Below, piece by piece: positions 1 through 15,730 of a stretch of DNA of 64,000 nucleotides; the stretch's first letter is position 1; every line of letters starts with the position of its first letter. The notes below the pieces were generated by a model, which saw nothing but the letters and a program-made list of their open reading frames with translations, ran no database searches and had not been told where the DNA came from. The stretch is from Rubrivivax sp. (GTDB lineage: Bacteria > Pseudomonadota > Gammaproteobacteria > Burkholderiales > Burkholderiaceae_C), in the NCBI GenBank assembly GCA_021300575.1, contig JAJTDM010000010.1:1-64000 (forward strand), read 5' to 3'. A program made the translations under genes and the position numbers.

Positions 1-407
1 TTGAGCCCCCAGAACACCGCTGCCACCGGGCCGACCTGGCCGAAGCGCAGATAGACCCAGGACAACGCAACGAGGATGAACAGAGACGGCAGCACGAACA
101 AGACGCCGGCAGCAATGCCGCCCCAGGTGCGGTGCATCAGCCACCCCAGGTAGGTGGCGAGCTGTTGCGCCTCAGGCCCGGGCAACAGCATGCAGTAGTT
201 CAGTGCATGCAGAAAGCGCTGTTCGCTGATCCAGCGCCGGCGCGTCACCAGTTCGTCATGCATCAACGCGATCTGCCCCGCCGGACCGCCGAAACTGATG
301 AAACCCAGGCGGCACCAGAACCGCAGCGCCTGGGCGAGGCTGGGGGCGACGACCCGGCCGGACCCGGGCGCCCCAGGCGCCTGCGCTTGAGCCCTTGATT
401 CAGACAC
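1..407 (-). CDS. chrA: Chromate transporter (CHR family), N-terminal part, runs off the left edge
   Basis: This gene is not in the ORF track because the window edge cuts it. Reading the minus strand from GTG at 407 gives about 135 residues. They include [19 protein letters not shown] and [16 protein letters not shown], the conserved first-half signature of CHR membrane transporters, followed by a hydrophobic helix ([17 protein letters not shown]). Family members export chromate, or transport related oxyanions, across the inner membrane. The GTG start overlaps the stop of the upstream kinase gene by 8 bases, so the two are probably translationally coupled. Whether it is a long-chain or short-chain CHR protein cannot be seen. 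The family call is secure; the substrate is inferred. Confidence 0.85.
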
Positions 408-12667: not shown

Positions 12668-13444
12668 TCACCGCCATGCGGGCTCGCGCTTGTTCAGGAA
12701 GGCCTGCACACCCTCCCGGCCTTCGTCGCTGGCGCGGATGTCGGCGATGCGACGCGCCGTCTCGGCGCGCAGGTCTTGGGTGATTTCACGGCCCGCGAAG
12801 TCTTGCACCAGGCGCTTGCAGGCCTTCACCGCGGCCGGGCCGTTGGCCACCAGCAGGGCCACGATCTCGTCGACCTTGGCGTCCAGCGCGTCGGGGGCCA
12901 CCAGTTCATGGACGAAGCCCATCTCACGAGCCTGCGCGGCGCTGAAGCGCTCGGCGGTGATGAAGTAGCGCCGCGCCGCCTGCTCGCCCATGGCGCGCAT
13001 GACGTAGGGGCTGATGGTGGCCGGCAGCAAGCCCAGACGCGCTTCGCTCAGGCAGAAGTGCATGCCCTCGGCGGCCACCAGCACGTCACAGCACGCGGCC
13101 AGGCCCATGCCGCCAGCGTAGCAGTCGCCGTGCAGCCGCCCCACCACCGGCAGCGGGCAGCTGTAGATCGCCCACAGCATCTCCGCCAGGCGGGTGGCAT
13201 CGGCGCGGTTGTCCTCCCAGCCATAGCCGGCCATGGACTTCATCCAGTTCAAGTCCGCCCCGGCGCAGAAGGCCTTGCCATGCCCGCCCAGCACGATGAC
13301 CCTCACACCCGGGTCCTGCCCCAGGCGGGTGAAGGTCTCGGCCAACTCCGTGATCACCCCGTCGTTGAAGGCGTTGCGGACCTCGGGCCGGTTGAGGAAG
13401 ACCTTGGCGACACGGCCTTCGATGTGGATGTCCAGGGTGTTCAT
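12668..13444 (-). CDS. liuC: Enoyl-CoA hydratase/isomerase, probable methylglutaconyl-CoA hydratase
   Basis: 258 residues from ATG 13444; the track start 13483 adds 13 residues encoded by a short direct repeat. Crotonase-fold motifs are LNRPEVRNAFNDGVI, GHGKAFCAGADLNWM (first oxyanion-hole strand) and GDCYAGGMGLAACCDV (second oxyanion-hole glycines). The Glu in LSEARLGLLPATISPYV is in the position of a catalytic acid. In a liu operon this enzyme hydrates 3-methylglutaconyl-CoA to HMG-CoA, between MCC and HMG-CoA lyase. The fold is certain; the substrate comes from context. Confidence 0.9.
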   Translation of the reverse strand: MNTLDIHIEGRVAKVFLNRPEVRNAFNDGVITELAETFTRLGQDPGVRVIVLGGHGKAFCAGADLNWMKSMAGYGWEDNRADATRLAEMLWAIYSCPLPVVGRLHGDCYAGGMGLAACCDVLVAAEGMHFCLSEARLGLLPATISPYVMRAMGEQAARRYFITAERFSAAQAREMGFVHELVAPDALDAKVDEIVALLVANGPAAVKACKRLVQDFAGREITQDLRAETARRIADIRASDEGREGVQAFLNKREPAWR

Positions 13445-13496
13445 GCTGATATGCCTGCGTGTGCTGATGTGCCTGCGTTGCACGTGACGAGCGCGA

Positions 13497-13576
13497 CATG
13501 CGGTCCCCTTCGCTCATGTCCTCCGGATCGGGCTTCGCCCGCTCCTCCCCCTTTACTTCGCTGCGGGGACCACCTG
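13497..13576 (-). repeat. Nested-stem intergenic repeat, copy 1
   Basis: Read on the minus strand the core is GCGAAGTAAAGGGGGAG, a small hairpin (CGGGC/GCCCG around GAA), then CGGAGGACATGAGCG. The core is enclosed by complementary outer arms of about 12 bases (10 of 12 pair, including GGTCCCC with GGGGACC). Copy 2 has the same core in the opposite orientation, but its hairpin and outer arms differ in sequence while remaining complementary. Confidence 0.8.
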
Positions 13577-13634
13577 CCGCACTCGTCCTGCCAGCAGATC
13601 TCAGCGCCACCGTCCGGAAACCAGAGTGCTGGAA

Positions 13635-13740
13635 GGTCAGCGCGTGTTGGGGCTGTGCGCAGCGAAGTCAAGGGGGAGCCGGTTGCCAAAGGCGACCGGC
13701 GGAGGACATGAGCGGAGCACAGCCCCGACATGCGCTGACC
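13635..13740 (+). repeat. Nested-stem intergenic repeat, copy 2
   Basis: The core GCGAAGTCAAGGGGGAG is followed by a hairpin (GCCGGTTGCC/GGCGACCGGC around AAA) and CGGAGGACATGAGCG. The outer arms 13635-13658 and 13717-13740 form an imperfect 24-base inverted repeat with 22 of 24 paired, including GGGGCTGTGC/GCACAGCCCC. The orientation is opposite to copy 1. No transposase is present. It could be a REP-like or MITE-like element, or an RNA structure inside the operon transcript. Confidence 0.85.
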
Positions 13741-13819
13741 CCGCGAGGTCTCACCTTGCAAACAAACATCCCGCACAGACAGTCTCCCCGAAGCGTGAAC
13801 CCGCGAGCAACCCCCCATC

Positions 13820-14956
13820 TCAATACCGCTTCGCCGCTTCATCCAGCATCACCTCGGTGGCCCCGCCACCAATGGCCAGGATGCGGGCGTCGCGCCAGAG
13901 GCGCTCGATGGCCATGCCGCGCATGTAGCCCATGCCGCCGTGCACCTGCTGGCAACCCAGCGTCACCTCGTTGACCAACTCGCCCGTCAGCGCCTTCAGC
14001 AGCGACACATCCTGCACGATGTCGTGGCCCTGCGTCACACGCCAGGCGCAGTGGTAGAGGTAGGCGCGGGCCGCGCGGGTTTTGGCGTCCAGCATCGCCA
14101 GCTTCTGGCGCACTGCCTGCTTGTCCCACAACGTGCCACCGAACGCCTGGCGCGTGCGGGCGTGCTCAACCGCCAGCTTCAGCGCCTGCGTGCAGTGCCC
14201 CACGGCCATCGCGCCGAGGGCGATGCGCTCGGTCTGGAAGTTCTTCATCACCGCGTAGAAGCCCTTGCCCTCCTCGCCCAGCAGGTGAGCTGCGCGCACC
14301 CGGCAGTTGTCGAAGTGCAGCTCCGCCGTGTCGGAACACAGCCAGCCGGTCTTCTCTAGCTGCCGGCCCACGGTAAAGCCGGGTGTGCCCTTCTCCACGG
14401 CGAAGATCGAGATCTCATGCCGCGCCGTGCCGGTGCGCGCCGCCACGAAGTAAAGGTCGGCGTGCACACCGTTGGTGATGAAGAGCTTGTTGCCGTTGAT
14501 CACCCACTCGTCACCGTCGCGCCGCGCCGTGGCGCGCATGCCCGCCACGTCCGAGCCCGCGCCGGGCTCGGTGACGGCCACCGCAGTGATGGTGTGGCCG
14601 CTGGTGATGCCCGGCATCCAGCGCGCCTGCTGTGCCGGGTTGCCGGCATGGTGCAGGTGAGGGCTTGCCATGTCGGTGTGCACCAGCACCGTGACGATGA
14701 AGCCACCGAAGGTGCTCTGGCTTAAGCCTTCGGCAAACACCAGGTTGGTCATGGCATCCGCGCCGCCGCCACCATGCTCGGGCGCGTACACCAGTCCCAG
14801 CAGGCCGGCGTCGCCCATCTTGCGAAGGACCTCGCGCGGCACCATGCCCTGGCGCTCCCAGGCCTCGGCGTAGGGCTCCACCTCGCGTGCGAGGAAGCGG
14901 GCAATCTGCTCGCGCAGCAGTTCGTGTTCGGGGGTGTCGTGGATGGAGTGATTCAT
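13820..14956 (-). CDS. Acyl-CoA dehydrogenase, long-chain/isovaleryl-type catalytic base
   Basis: 378 residues from ATG 14956; the track start 15061 reads into vapC. FAD-binding and fold motifs are [16 protein letters not shown] and WVINGNKLFITNG. The C-terminal helix region is VHGGMGYMRGMAIERLWRD. At the position where short-chain enzymes carry the catalytic Glu (YEGT) it has GGGATEV. A Glu in the helix of NFQTERIALG can serve instead, as in isovaleryl- and long-chain acyl-CoA dehydrogenases. It starts 4 bases after vapC ends and lies in the liu operon, so a branched or citronellyl-type acyl-CoA substrate is plausible but not shown. A true liuA is at 38280-39458. Confidence 0.88.
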   Translation of the reverse strand: MNHSIHDTPEHELLREQIARFLAREVEPYAEAWERQGMVPREVLRKMGDAGLLGLVYAPEHGGGGADAMTNLVFAEGLSQSTFGGFIVTVLVHTDMASPHLHHAGNPAQQARWMPGITSGHTITAVAVTEPGAGSDVAGMRATARRDGDEWVINGNKLFITNGVHADLYFVAARTGTARHEISIFAVEKGTPGFTVGRQLEKTGWLCSDTAELHFDNCRVRAAHLLGEEGKGFYAVMKNFQTERIALGAMAVGHCTQALKLAVEHARTRQAFGGTLWDKQAVRQKLAMLDAKTRAARAYLYHCAWRVTQGHDIVQDVSLLKALTGELVNEVTLGCQQVHGGMGYMRGMAIERLWRDARILAIGGGATEVMLDEAAKRY

Positions 14957-14960
14957 GATT

Positions 14961-15362
14961 TCAATGCTGCCAGCCACGCAGGCCGCGCAGTTGCTCGAAG
15001 ACGTCAAAGTCTCGATCGCGGTGCAGCAGCACATAGTCGCGCTCGATGCAGAAGGTGGCAATCAACACGTCGATGGCGCTGCGTACAGTGACACCGGCCG
15101 CACGCAGGCTGCGGTAGTGGCGGGCGGCCTCAACGGCCAAGGTGGCGCCGGCCACGGGTTCGACACGCAGGCTCTCCAGCAACAGGCGGGCGCGACGATG
15201 GTCATGGTCGTCCCGAAAGCCGCGCAGAACCTCGAACAGCACGAGGTCTGGCACGACGATGGGCACTACACCCGTCTCCAGCAGCTTGGCCAGGTGCTCC
15301 ACCGAGGGGTGATCGACATCGTTGAAGAAGTCGATCCAGACACTGGAGTCAACGACCAGCAC
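14961..15362 (-). CDS. vapC: PIN-domain toxin, VapC family
   Basis: About 133 residues from GTG 15362 (M/V-LVVDSSVWIDFF is the usual VapC opening); ATG 15398 is an alternative, and the track start 15521 is too long. The PIN acidic residues are visible: Asp in VVDSSVWID, Glu in LVLFEVLRG, Asp in SAIDVLIA and the pair in LLHRDRDFD. VapC proteins are Mg-dependent RNases cutting tRNA or rRNA. The start overlaps the VapB stop by 14 bases. The module sits between mccB and an acyl-CoA dehydrogenase gene. Confidence 0.9.
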   Translation of the reverse strand: MLVVDSSVWIDFFNDVDHPSVEHLAKLLETGVVPIVVPDLVLFEVLRGFRDDHDHRRARLLLESLRVEPVAGATLAVEAARHYRSLRAAGVTVRSAIDVLIATFCIERDYVLLHRDRDFDVFEQLRGLRGWQH

Positions 15363-15684
15363 GGCGCTTGCGTCCAGCAGCCGGTTTGGCCTGGGCATCG
15401 GCCACGGCGGGCCCGGCCGCTGCTTTACCGGCCGAACCGTAGGGCGGTGATGTCGGCTCTTGGACTGACACCACTTTGACAGCCTCTGCAGGCGCCTTGG
15501 TCCAGTCGATGGACTCGTCACCTTCCCACTTGAGCTTGCCTCGCCACTTCAAGATCTCCTTGTAGGCAGCCTGGCGCGCAAGCAGCTTCAGCCCCGCCTC
15601 GACGGCCTCGCGTTTGGTCTTGAAGGGGCCGGCCTGCATCGCCCGGGCCATCAACTCGTCATCGATATCGATGTTGGTGCGCAT
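15349..15684 (-). CDS. vapB: VapB-type antitoxin
   Basis: 111 residues from ATG 15684. The N-terminus MRTNIDIDDELMARAMQ and FKTKREAVEAGLKLLARQ form the ribbon-helix-helix-like DNA-binding part of VapB (DUF2191-type) antitoxins. The C-terminal half is longer than usual, Ala/Lys rich and probably disordered (AAAGPAVADAQAKPAAGRK). It neutralises VapC and represses its own promoter in related systems. Only 46 bases separate it from the mccB stop. Confidence 0.88.
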   Translation of the reverse strand: MRTNIDIDDELMARAMQAGPFKTKREAVEAGLKLLARQAAYKEILKWRGKLKWEGDESIDWTKAPAEAVKVVSVQEPTSPPYGSAGKAAAGPAVADAQAKPAAGRKRRAGR

Positions 15685-15730
15685 GATGTGTATGGGGTGG
15701 ATATAAGTGACACATCGTACACTCAAAGAG
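15685..15730 (-). promoter_or_regulatory. Probable vapBC promoter/operator
   Basis: This short AT-rich gap reads GTGTACGATGTGTCACTTATAT on the minus strand just before vapB. TTATAT resembles a -10 box, and the repeated GTGTxxG half-sites could bind VapB. It gives vapBC, and perhaps the liu genes after it, a promoter separate from that of mccB. Confidence 0.45.

Follow-up and report, generated by a model that had tools for sequence, protein, structure and literature searches.

The window analysed here, a 64,000-nt stretch of a Rubrivivax sp. contig, carries between liuA and liuC two inverted copies of a repeat. What kind of element is this, and is its fold kept in the operon mRNA or in another molecule? 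The first-pass annotation had described shared cores, with inner hairpins and outer arms that differ between the copies but remain complementary. Both observations hold. The copies are divergent hairpins of ~106 nt that share the cores GCGAAGTAAAGGGGGAG/GCGAAGTCAAGGGGGAG and CGGAGGACATGAGCG, each with its own sequence in the inner hairpin (19 nt in copy 1, 21 nt in copy 2) and in the outer arms, which are nonetheless self-complementary (Table 1). The interval first assigned to them, 13497-13740, trims 13 nt from the outer arm of copy 1.

Each hairpin has an outer stem of 23 bp whose sequence varies, a purine-rich internal loop of conserved sequence (GCGAAGTNAAGGRGGAG / CGGRGGACATGAGCG), and an inner hairpin that is again variable and ranges from 7 to 29 nt across copies. 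Moving inward, the outer stem is followed by a 3x3 element that is mostly GNA/GNA, two G-C/C-G pairs, tandem G.A/A.G, an A-T pair, the loop and the inner hairpin. Covariance model R1 was made from 30 diverse copies. Copy 1 is among these training sequences and copy 2 is outside them, so copy 2 gives the cleaner score. A covariance-model search of the full window found no third copy. Compared with dinucleotide shuffles, the motif strands of the window copies fold with z = -10.5 and -7.2 as RNA and z = -9.0 and -5.1 as DNA. No intrinsic terminator (a GC-rich stem followed by a T run) was found within 13440-13830, and the absence of T runs rules out a bidirectional terminator. Also in the liu cluster, at 14961-15726 on the minus strand, two small overlapping genes have the look of a VapBC-type toxin-antitoxin pair when their translations are read by eye; they sit between liuA and the carboxyltransferase gene.

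Table 1. Positions of the two hairpins, their parts and the inserted segment in the window.
Feature	Position	Strand or context	Evidence
Hairpin copy 1, full 106-nt unit	13484..13589	minus, sense to liu operon	cmsearch R1, 99.1 bits, E 1.3e-21
Copy 1, 5' arm of 23-bp outer stem	13565..13587	minus	pair register k=4..26, cmsearch alignment
Copy 1, 5' conserved core GCGAAGTAAAGGGGGAG	13545..13561	minus	sequence
Copy 1, variable inner hairpin GAGCGGGCGAAGCCCGATC, C(GAA)G triloop, 19 nt	13526..13544	minus	sequence, folds
Copy 1, 3' conserved core CGGAGGACATGAGCG	13511..13525	minus	sequence
Copy 1, 3' arm of 23-bp outer stem	13486..13508	minus	pair register, cmsearch alignment
Spacer between hairpins, 44 nt, no promoter-like site found	13590..13633	no strand	
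Hairpin copy 2, full 108-nt unit	13634..13741	plus, antisense to liu operon	cmsearch R1, 91.8 bits, E 7.6e-20
Copy 2, 5' arm of outer stem	13636..13658	plus	pair register, cmsearch alignment
Copy 2, 5' conserved core GCGAAGTCAAGGGGGAG	13662..13678	plus	sequence
Copy 2, variable inner hairpin, 21 nt	13679..13699	plus	sequence, folds
Copy 2, 3' conserved core CGGAGGACATGAGCG	13700..13714	plus	sequence
Copy 2, 3' arm of outer stem	13717..13739	plus	pair register, cmsearch alignment
Approximate insertion extent, ends not base-precise	13445..13805	between liuA stop (with retained GGGGGTTG) and liuC start	comparison with empty-site relatives G008 and G014

The complementary arms had been taken as covariation and hence as a sign of selection on structure, and the wider set of copies bears this out. 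In a gapless alignment of 30 sequences (A1), standard pairs fill 94.6% of pair cells versus 65.0% after shuffling. Double changes occur at 31 of the 36 pairs, and cells with both sides changed number 322 versus 92 shuffled. The covariation score is 0.80 versus 0.20 shuffled (0/500 shuffles). Sliding the partner by 1-3 columns leaves pairing at only 34-39% in every slid register, and RNAalifold returns the same helices without an input structure. A larger set of 110 nonredundant copies comes from MAG-heavy sampling and lacks phylogenetic independence; here most outer-stem positions are 75-97% Watson-Crick versus 28-73% expected from column composition. Copies were recruited by core sequence, which favours well-kept cores and makes no selection for stem pairing. 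The conserved core covaries as well, with GCGAAG..TGAGCG changing to GTGAGG..CGAACG. G-C/A-T stands in place of the tandem G.A/A.G in 4 of the 110 copies, and a loop position pair, R/R', swaps among them (A,G 87; G,A 19; A,A 4; G,G 0).

Copies at orthologous sites, defined by matching flanks, agree with the alignment. In the outer stem, double changes that still pair number 647 versus 186 under random substitution, and single changes that break a pair number 175 versus 844 expected from random placement; this comparison is descriptive, as the pairs are non-independent, some rest on one flank or mix paralogues, and the neutral model is simple. The cleanest case is the pccB-pccA junction of several Comamonadaceae (L098, L112, L121, L132, L192 and L195), where the hairpins occupy the same place and their arms have changed yet still match. 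Together these data show that selection maintains the fold of each hairpin, and does so at orthologous sites long after the element arrived. Some copies look domesticated, among them the one at pccB-pccA. The gene we take to be pccA is the biotin-carboxylase-type gene starting MFTKILIANRGEIA downstream of the junction hairpins, and the gene upstream of it is presumably pccB, assigned by eye from its C-terminal sequence. In L112 a tandem repeat, with a unit of ~30 nt that includes GCCCATGGCGAGCTCAGCAATTCACAA, lies downstream of the plus hairpin and duplicates part of its 3' arm.

Two further proposals of the first-pass annotation concerned the mRNA. The copies were suggested to pair with each other into one long stem in the operon transcript, and the energy model does prefer such a cross-paired fold (-150.4 kcal/mol versus local -65.0 and -60.8). 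Each hairpin, however, covaries within itself, and the arms of one copy are not complementary to those of the other. The motif GGAGGACATG, read as a possible ribosome-binding site, lies inside the conserved structural loop; copies face both ways, we found no sign of translation from the motif, and we set that reading aside.

The distance from the liuA stop to the liuC start is 375 nt in the window but 12-14 nt in the element-free relatives G008 and G014 (TGAGAGGGGGTTGTGATG in G008). The window element is therefore an insertion. The ancestral GGGGGTTG is still recognisable beside the liuA stop, and with the short junction of the relatives this places the insertion between the likely liuC Shine-Dalgarno sequence and the start codon. 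Wherever both hairpins of a pair are recognised they are divergent, in 59 '-+' clusters versus 1 '+-'. Spacer lengths peak at 42-50 nt. These results show a repeated, dispersed element, inserted between genes, with a fixed divergent architecture and a typical spacer.

Imperfect terminal inverted repeats (TIRs) like GGCCCGTTGCGGWCGTTCGC flank the units in two genomes, G018 (a Rubrivivax MAG) and G027 (MAG KLAP34), giving TIR-like ends of ~20 bp. The ends of the window element resemble these TIRs weakly. At the loci examined, the TIR pattern surrounded short non-coding elements only; no autonomous transposon with a G018-type TIR was found there, and other motif-free, TIR-bounded structured elements were found instead. 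There was no convincing target-site duplication at the G018 elements or at the window site. No transposase is linked to the element, and no protein partner or autonomous element is established. At L292, L293, L295 and L296 of G018 (Rubrivivax bin.222), a different ~230-nt structured hairpin replaces one motif copy within the TIR-bounded elements (RNA fold z = -9.4; no Rfam match). Motif-free non-coding elements with the same TIR type and many palindromes occur at L365, L366 and L367 of G012, where they are ~450 nt long, and at L360-L362 of G004. The genus apparently holds a larger superfamily of TIR-bounded structured elements.

The covariance-model search gave 20 matches in this genome, relatives hold many more, and their arms are complementary; the outcome that the first-pass annotation had named as refuting, no further copies or copies lacking complementary arms, did not occur. 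The motif is present in 19 of the 36 relatives from the same genus, and in that sample also in one genome from a different genus, at 1-57 copies each. In an even sample of the order at least 15 of 300 genomes (9 of 135 genera) are positive, and in a phylum sample at least 11 of 399; these counts are lower bounds because the filters were strict and few candidates were scored per genome. Among the matches listed from a contig pattern scan are Rubrivivax, Hydrogenophaga, Rhodoferax, Variovorax, Methylibium, Paucibacter, Aquabacterium, Ideonella and others, as well as Sulfurisoma, a Rhodocyclales MAG and the gammaproteobacteria Luteimonas and Pseudoxanthomonas. Among other Burkholderiales and the Xanthomonadales, carriers are the minority. 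In Sulfurisoma sediminicola (G284, L338-L349), a TGA precedes and an ATG follows many of the elements, and a right end like GGAGCAACTGACATG recurs, as if the element supplied the ribosome-binding site of the next gene. A phage or plasmid vehicle was considered and rejected: the motif is all but missing from viral contigs, phages and plasmids, with no phage match and occurrences on two Variovorax megaplasmids and one viral contig. For the window and eleven relatives, Rfam 15 returned no family at gathering score and sub-threshold miRNA-type matches only. The full text of open PMC papers gave no relevant paper for the core sequence, and a targeted search of that literature returned REP/REPIN papers in which this repeat is undescribed. 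We regard it as apparently undescribed mobile DNA scattered through the beta- and gammaproteobacteria.

Which strand carries the selected fold can be read from the wobble pairs. On the motif strand of the 110 copies there are 228 G.T pairs versus 30 A.C, so it is the folding of this strand, not of its complement, that is kept. DNA parameters also make the motif strand the more stable of the two in 110/110 copies, and RNA parameters do so in 107/110. If the operon mRNA were the selected molecule, antisense copies should reverse the bias. This reversal is not seen. G.T:A.C is 162:8 in sense copies, 144:15 in antisense copies and 107:12 between convergent genes, with gene calls from a home-made codon model and copies having at least 13/23 Watson-Crick pairs, a filter neutral between G.T and A.C. 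At the pccB-pccA site it is 19:1 in plus copies and 14:1 in minus (antisense) copies. The motif-strand fold itself is thus kept, G.T being tolerated and A.C not, whatever the direction of neighbouring transcription (STATISTICALLY). Since the bias, roughly 10-20 to 1, is about equal in antisense and sense copies, selection does not act mainly via the host operon mRNA, and regulation of the liu genes, raised in the first-pass annotation, finds no support as the selected function. With the fold kept in either gene orientation, we infer that the selected molecule is single-stranded or extruded DNA.

Other features bear on the same choice. Outward sigma-70 promoters are not enriched over shuffles in the spacers. 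The tandem GCGAA/TGAGC mismatch is also known as a classic motif of stable DNA duplexes. The inner hairpins are capped by GNA triloops in 65 of 110 copies and by GNNA in several, with no UNCG cap among the 110. GNA triloops occur in RNA too. GNA and GNNA loops closed by G-C pairs form unusually stable DNA mini-hairpins (PMC4686876). Taken together, the strand bias, the lack of promoter signal in the spacers, the cap types and the mismatch motif favour folded single-stranded DNA. The wobble bias alone cannot separate RNA from single-stranded DNA, as G.U and G.T are both tolerated. RNA produced from both sides, by antisense or unannotated transcription, could likewise leave a bias unrelated to the orientation of the genes. 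Since bidirectional transcription could imitate the strand result in this way, the DNA reading falls short of proof.

The pair could instead be a structured RNA element in read-through transcripts, for example one that stabilises mRNA, is processed by RNase III or binds a protein, with the back-to-back layout guaranteeing one sense copy in either orientation. Strong covariation is what a structured RNA would have, the RNA fold is very stable, and the copies lie between genes and inside operons, divergent-promoter contexts being rare (58 convergent versus 10 divergent) and the pccB-pccA operon conserving its hairpins. This possibility is nevertheless a minority one to us. In antisense copies the G.T bias stays on the strand absent from the operon mRNA, both overall and at pccB-pccA, the spacer has no promoter signal for outward transcripts, the caps are GN(N)A without UNCG, and the predicted fold of the window mRNA favours pairing between the two copies. 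Rfam structured RNAs resemble the element in having covarying helices around a conserved loop, whereas here both orientations occur at each locus and no family is reached at gathering score. Alternatively, the complementarity of the arms may be a mutational by-product without selection on the fold. Template-switch correction of quasi-palindromes is known in principle; it would yield compensatory changes at fixed sites, and it could account for part of the stem complementarity. As a full account it is improbable, for it predicts neither the strong G.T over A.C asymmetry, nor a conserved non-complementary loop in the middle of a palindrome, nor the R/R' swap and the replacement of G.A by Watson-Crick pairs.

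Among known repeats, the likeness to REPINs and BIMEs is close: they too are intergenic and palindromic, form inverted doublets with preferred spacing, show compensatory stem changes and presumably pass through single-stranded DNA intermediates (PMC3116915, PMC2817692). If the present element were a REP/REPIN mobilised by a RAYT, a Y1 HUH transposase acting on single-stranded DNA, then its inverted, extragenic, multi-copy doublets, its GGAG just before the inner hairpin and its compensatory changes would follow, and a Y1 enzyme would be expected to impose specificity for the motif strand. The units, however, measure ~106 nt, their conserved GA-rich internal loop is enclosed by a variable outer stem of 23 bp, some species have TIR-like ends, and the head before the inner hairpin is GGRGGAG, not GT(A/G)G. 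Nor is there a RAYT gene flanked by inverted repeats at the 118 motif loci and the window. A single Y1-transposase-like gene was found there (L175), related to the single aroB-adjacent gene of this genome, which has relatives in all 37 genus genomes sampled, including motif-free ones; the Y1_Tnp family does not track the motif, and a RAYT is rejected as the mobiliser on these grounds. Because head sequence and RAYT association were both tested and neither was found, we do not class the element as REP/REPIN, and consider that origin unlikely. The aroB-linked gene, at L038 1929-2645 (G000:C178) and with a relative in every genus genome sampled, looks like a domesticated, vertically inherited one. 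MITEs such as Correia and RUP share the short, non-coding, multi-copy character, the ~20-bp TIR-like ends (G018, G027) and insertion polymorphism; here there are two independently folding, strand-specific hairpins with strong covariation, and no cognate IS or target duplication was identified. Integron attC sites are an analogy only. A strand-specific folded DNA hairpin with a variable stem and conserved unpaired bases follows attC logic (PMC6393395), but degenerate or sedentary attC sites recognised as folded single-stranded DNA by a tyrosine recombinase are a very remote prospect: the conserved cores form a non-complementary purine loop and do not pair mutually, unlike attC R and L boxes, and the units stand in fixed divergent pairs with no cassettes or cassette arrays. 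By analogy, the element would work most like REPINs and attC sites, as strand-specific folded single-stranded DNA, and move most like a MITE. We class it as neither an attC site nor an Rfam RNA and call it a further variant among the interspersed palindromic repeats.

We put at about one in two the reading in which the element is a non-autonomous, mobile intergenic repeat, MITE/BIME-like, made of two back-to-back ~106-nt hairpins on opposite strands and selected as a folded single DNA strand. In such an element the motif strand would fold once exposed, by negative supercoiling, on the lagging-strand template or during strand transfer. The folded strand would have GN(N)A loops as its caps and gain stiffness from G.A pairs, and a putative protein would read the conserved purine loop. 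The back-to-back layout would offer one such hairpin on each strand. The pair, bounded in some species by ~20-bp TIRs, would probably have been spread by a transposase acting in trans. A further step, which we advance only tentatively and think rather unlikely, is that these are a chromosomal class of strand-specific folded DNA hairpin pairs, first spread by transposition and now maintained by the host at fixed orthologous sites such as pccB-pccA, independently of transcription and read by a putative protein.

Intergenic repeats of bacteria are mostly handled as families of related sequence, but here it is structure that defines the family. Its arms drift freely while the fold is kept, and ordinary repeat searches would therefore split it into unrelated pieces. 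Strand bias offers a simple computational test of whether a conserved palindrome acts in mRNA or in single-stranded DNA, and here it points to DNA. Sulfurisoma sediminicola is an isolate that carries the element and is suited to its study. If confirmed, it would reveal a so far undescribed recognition system across environmental Burkholderiales and some Xanthomonadales.
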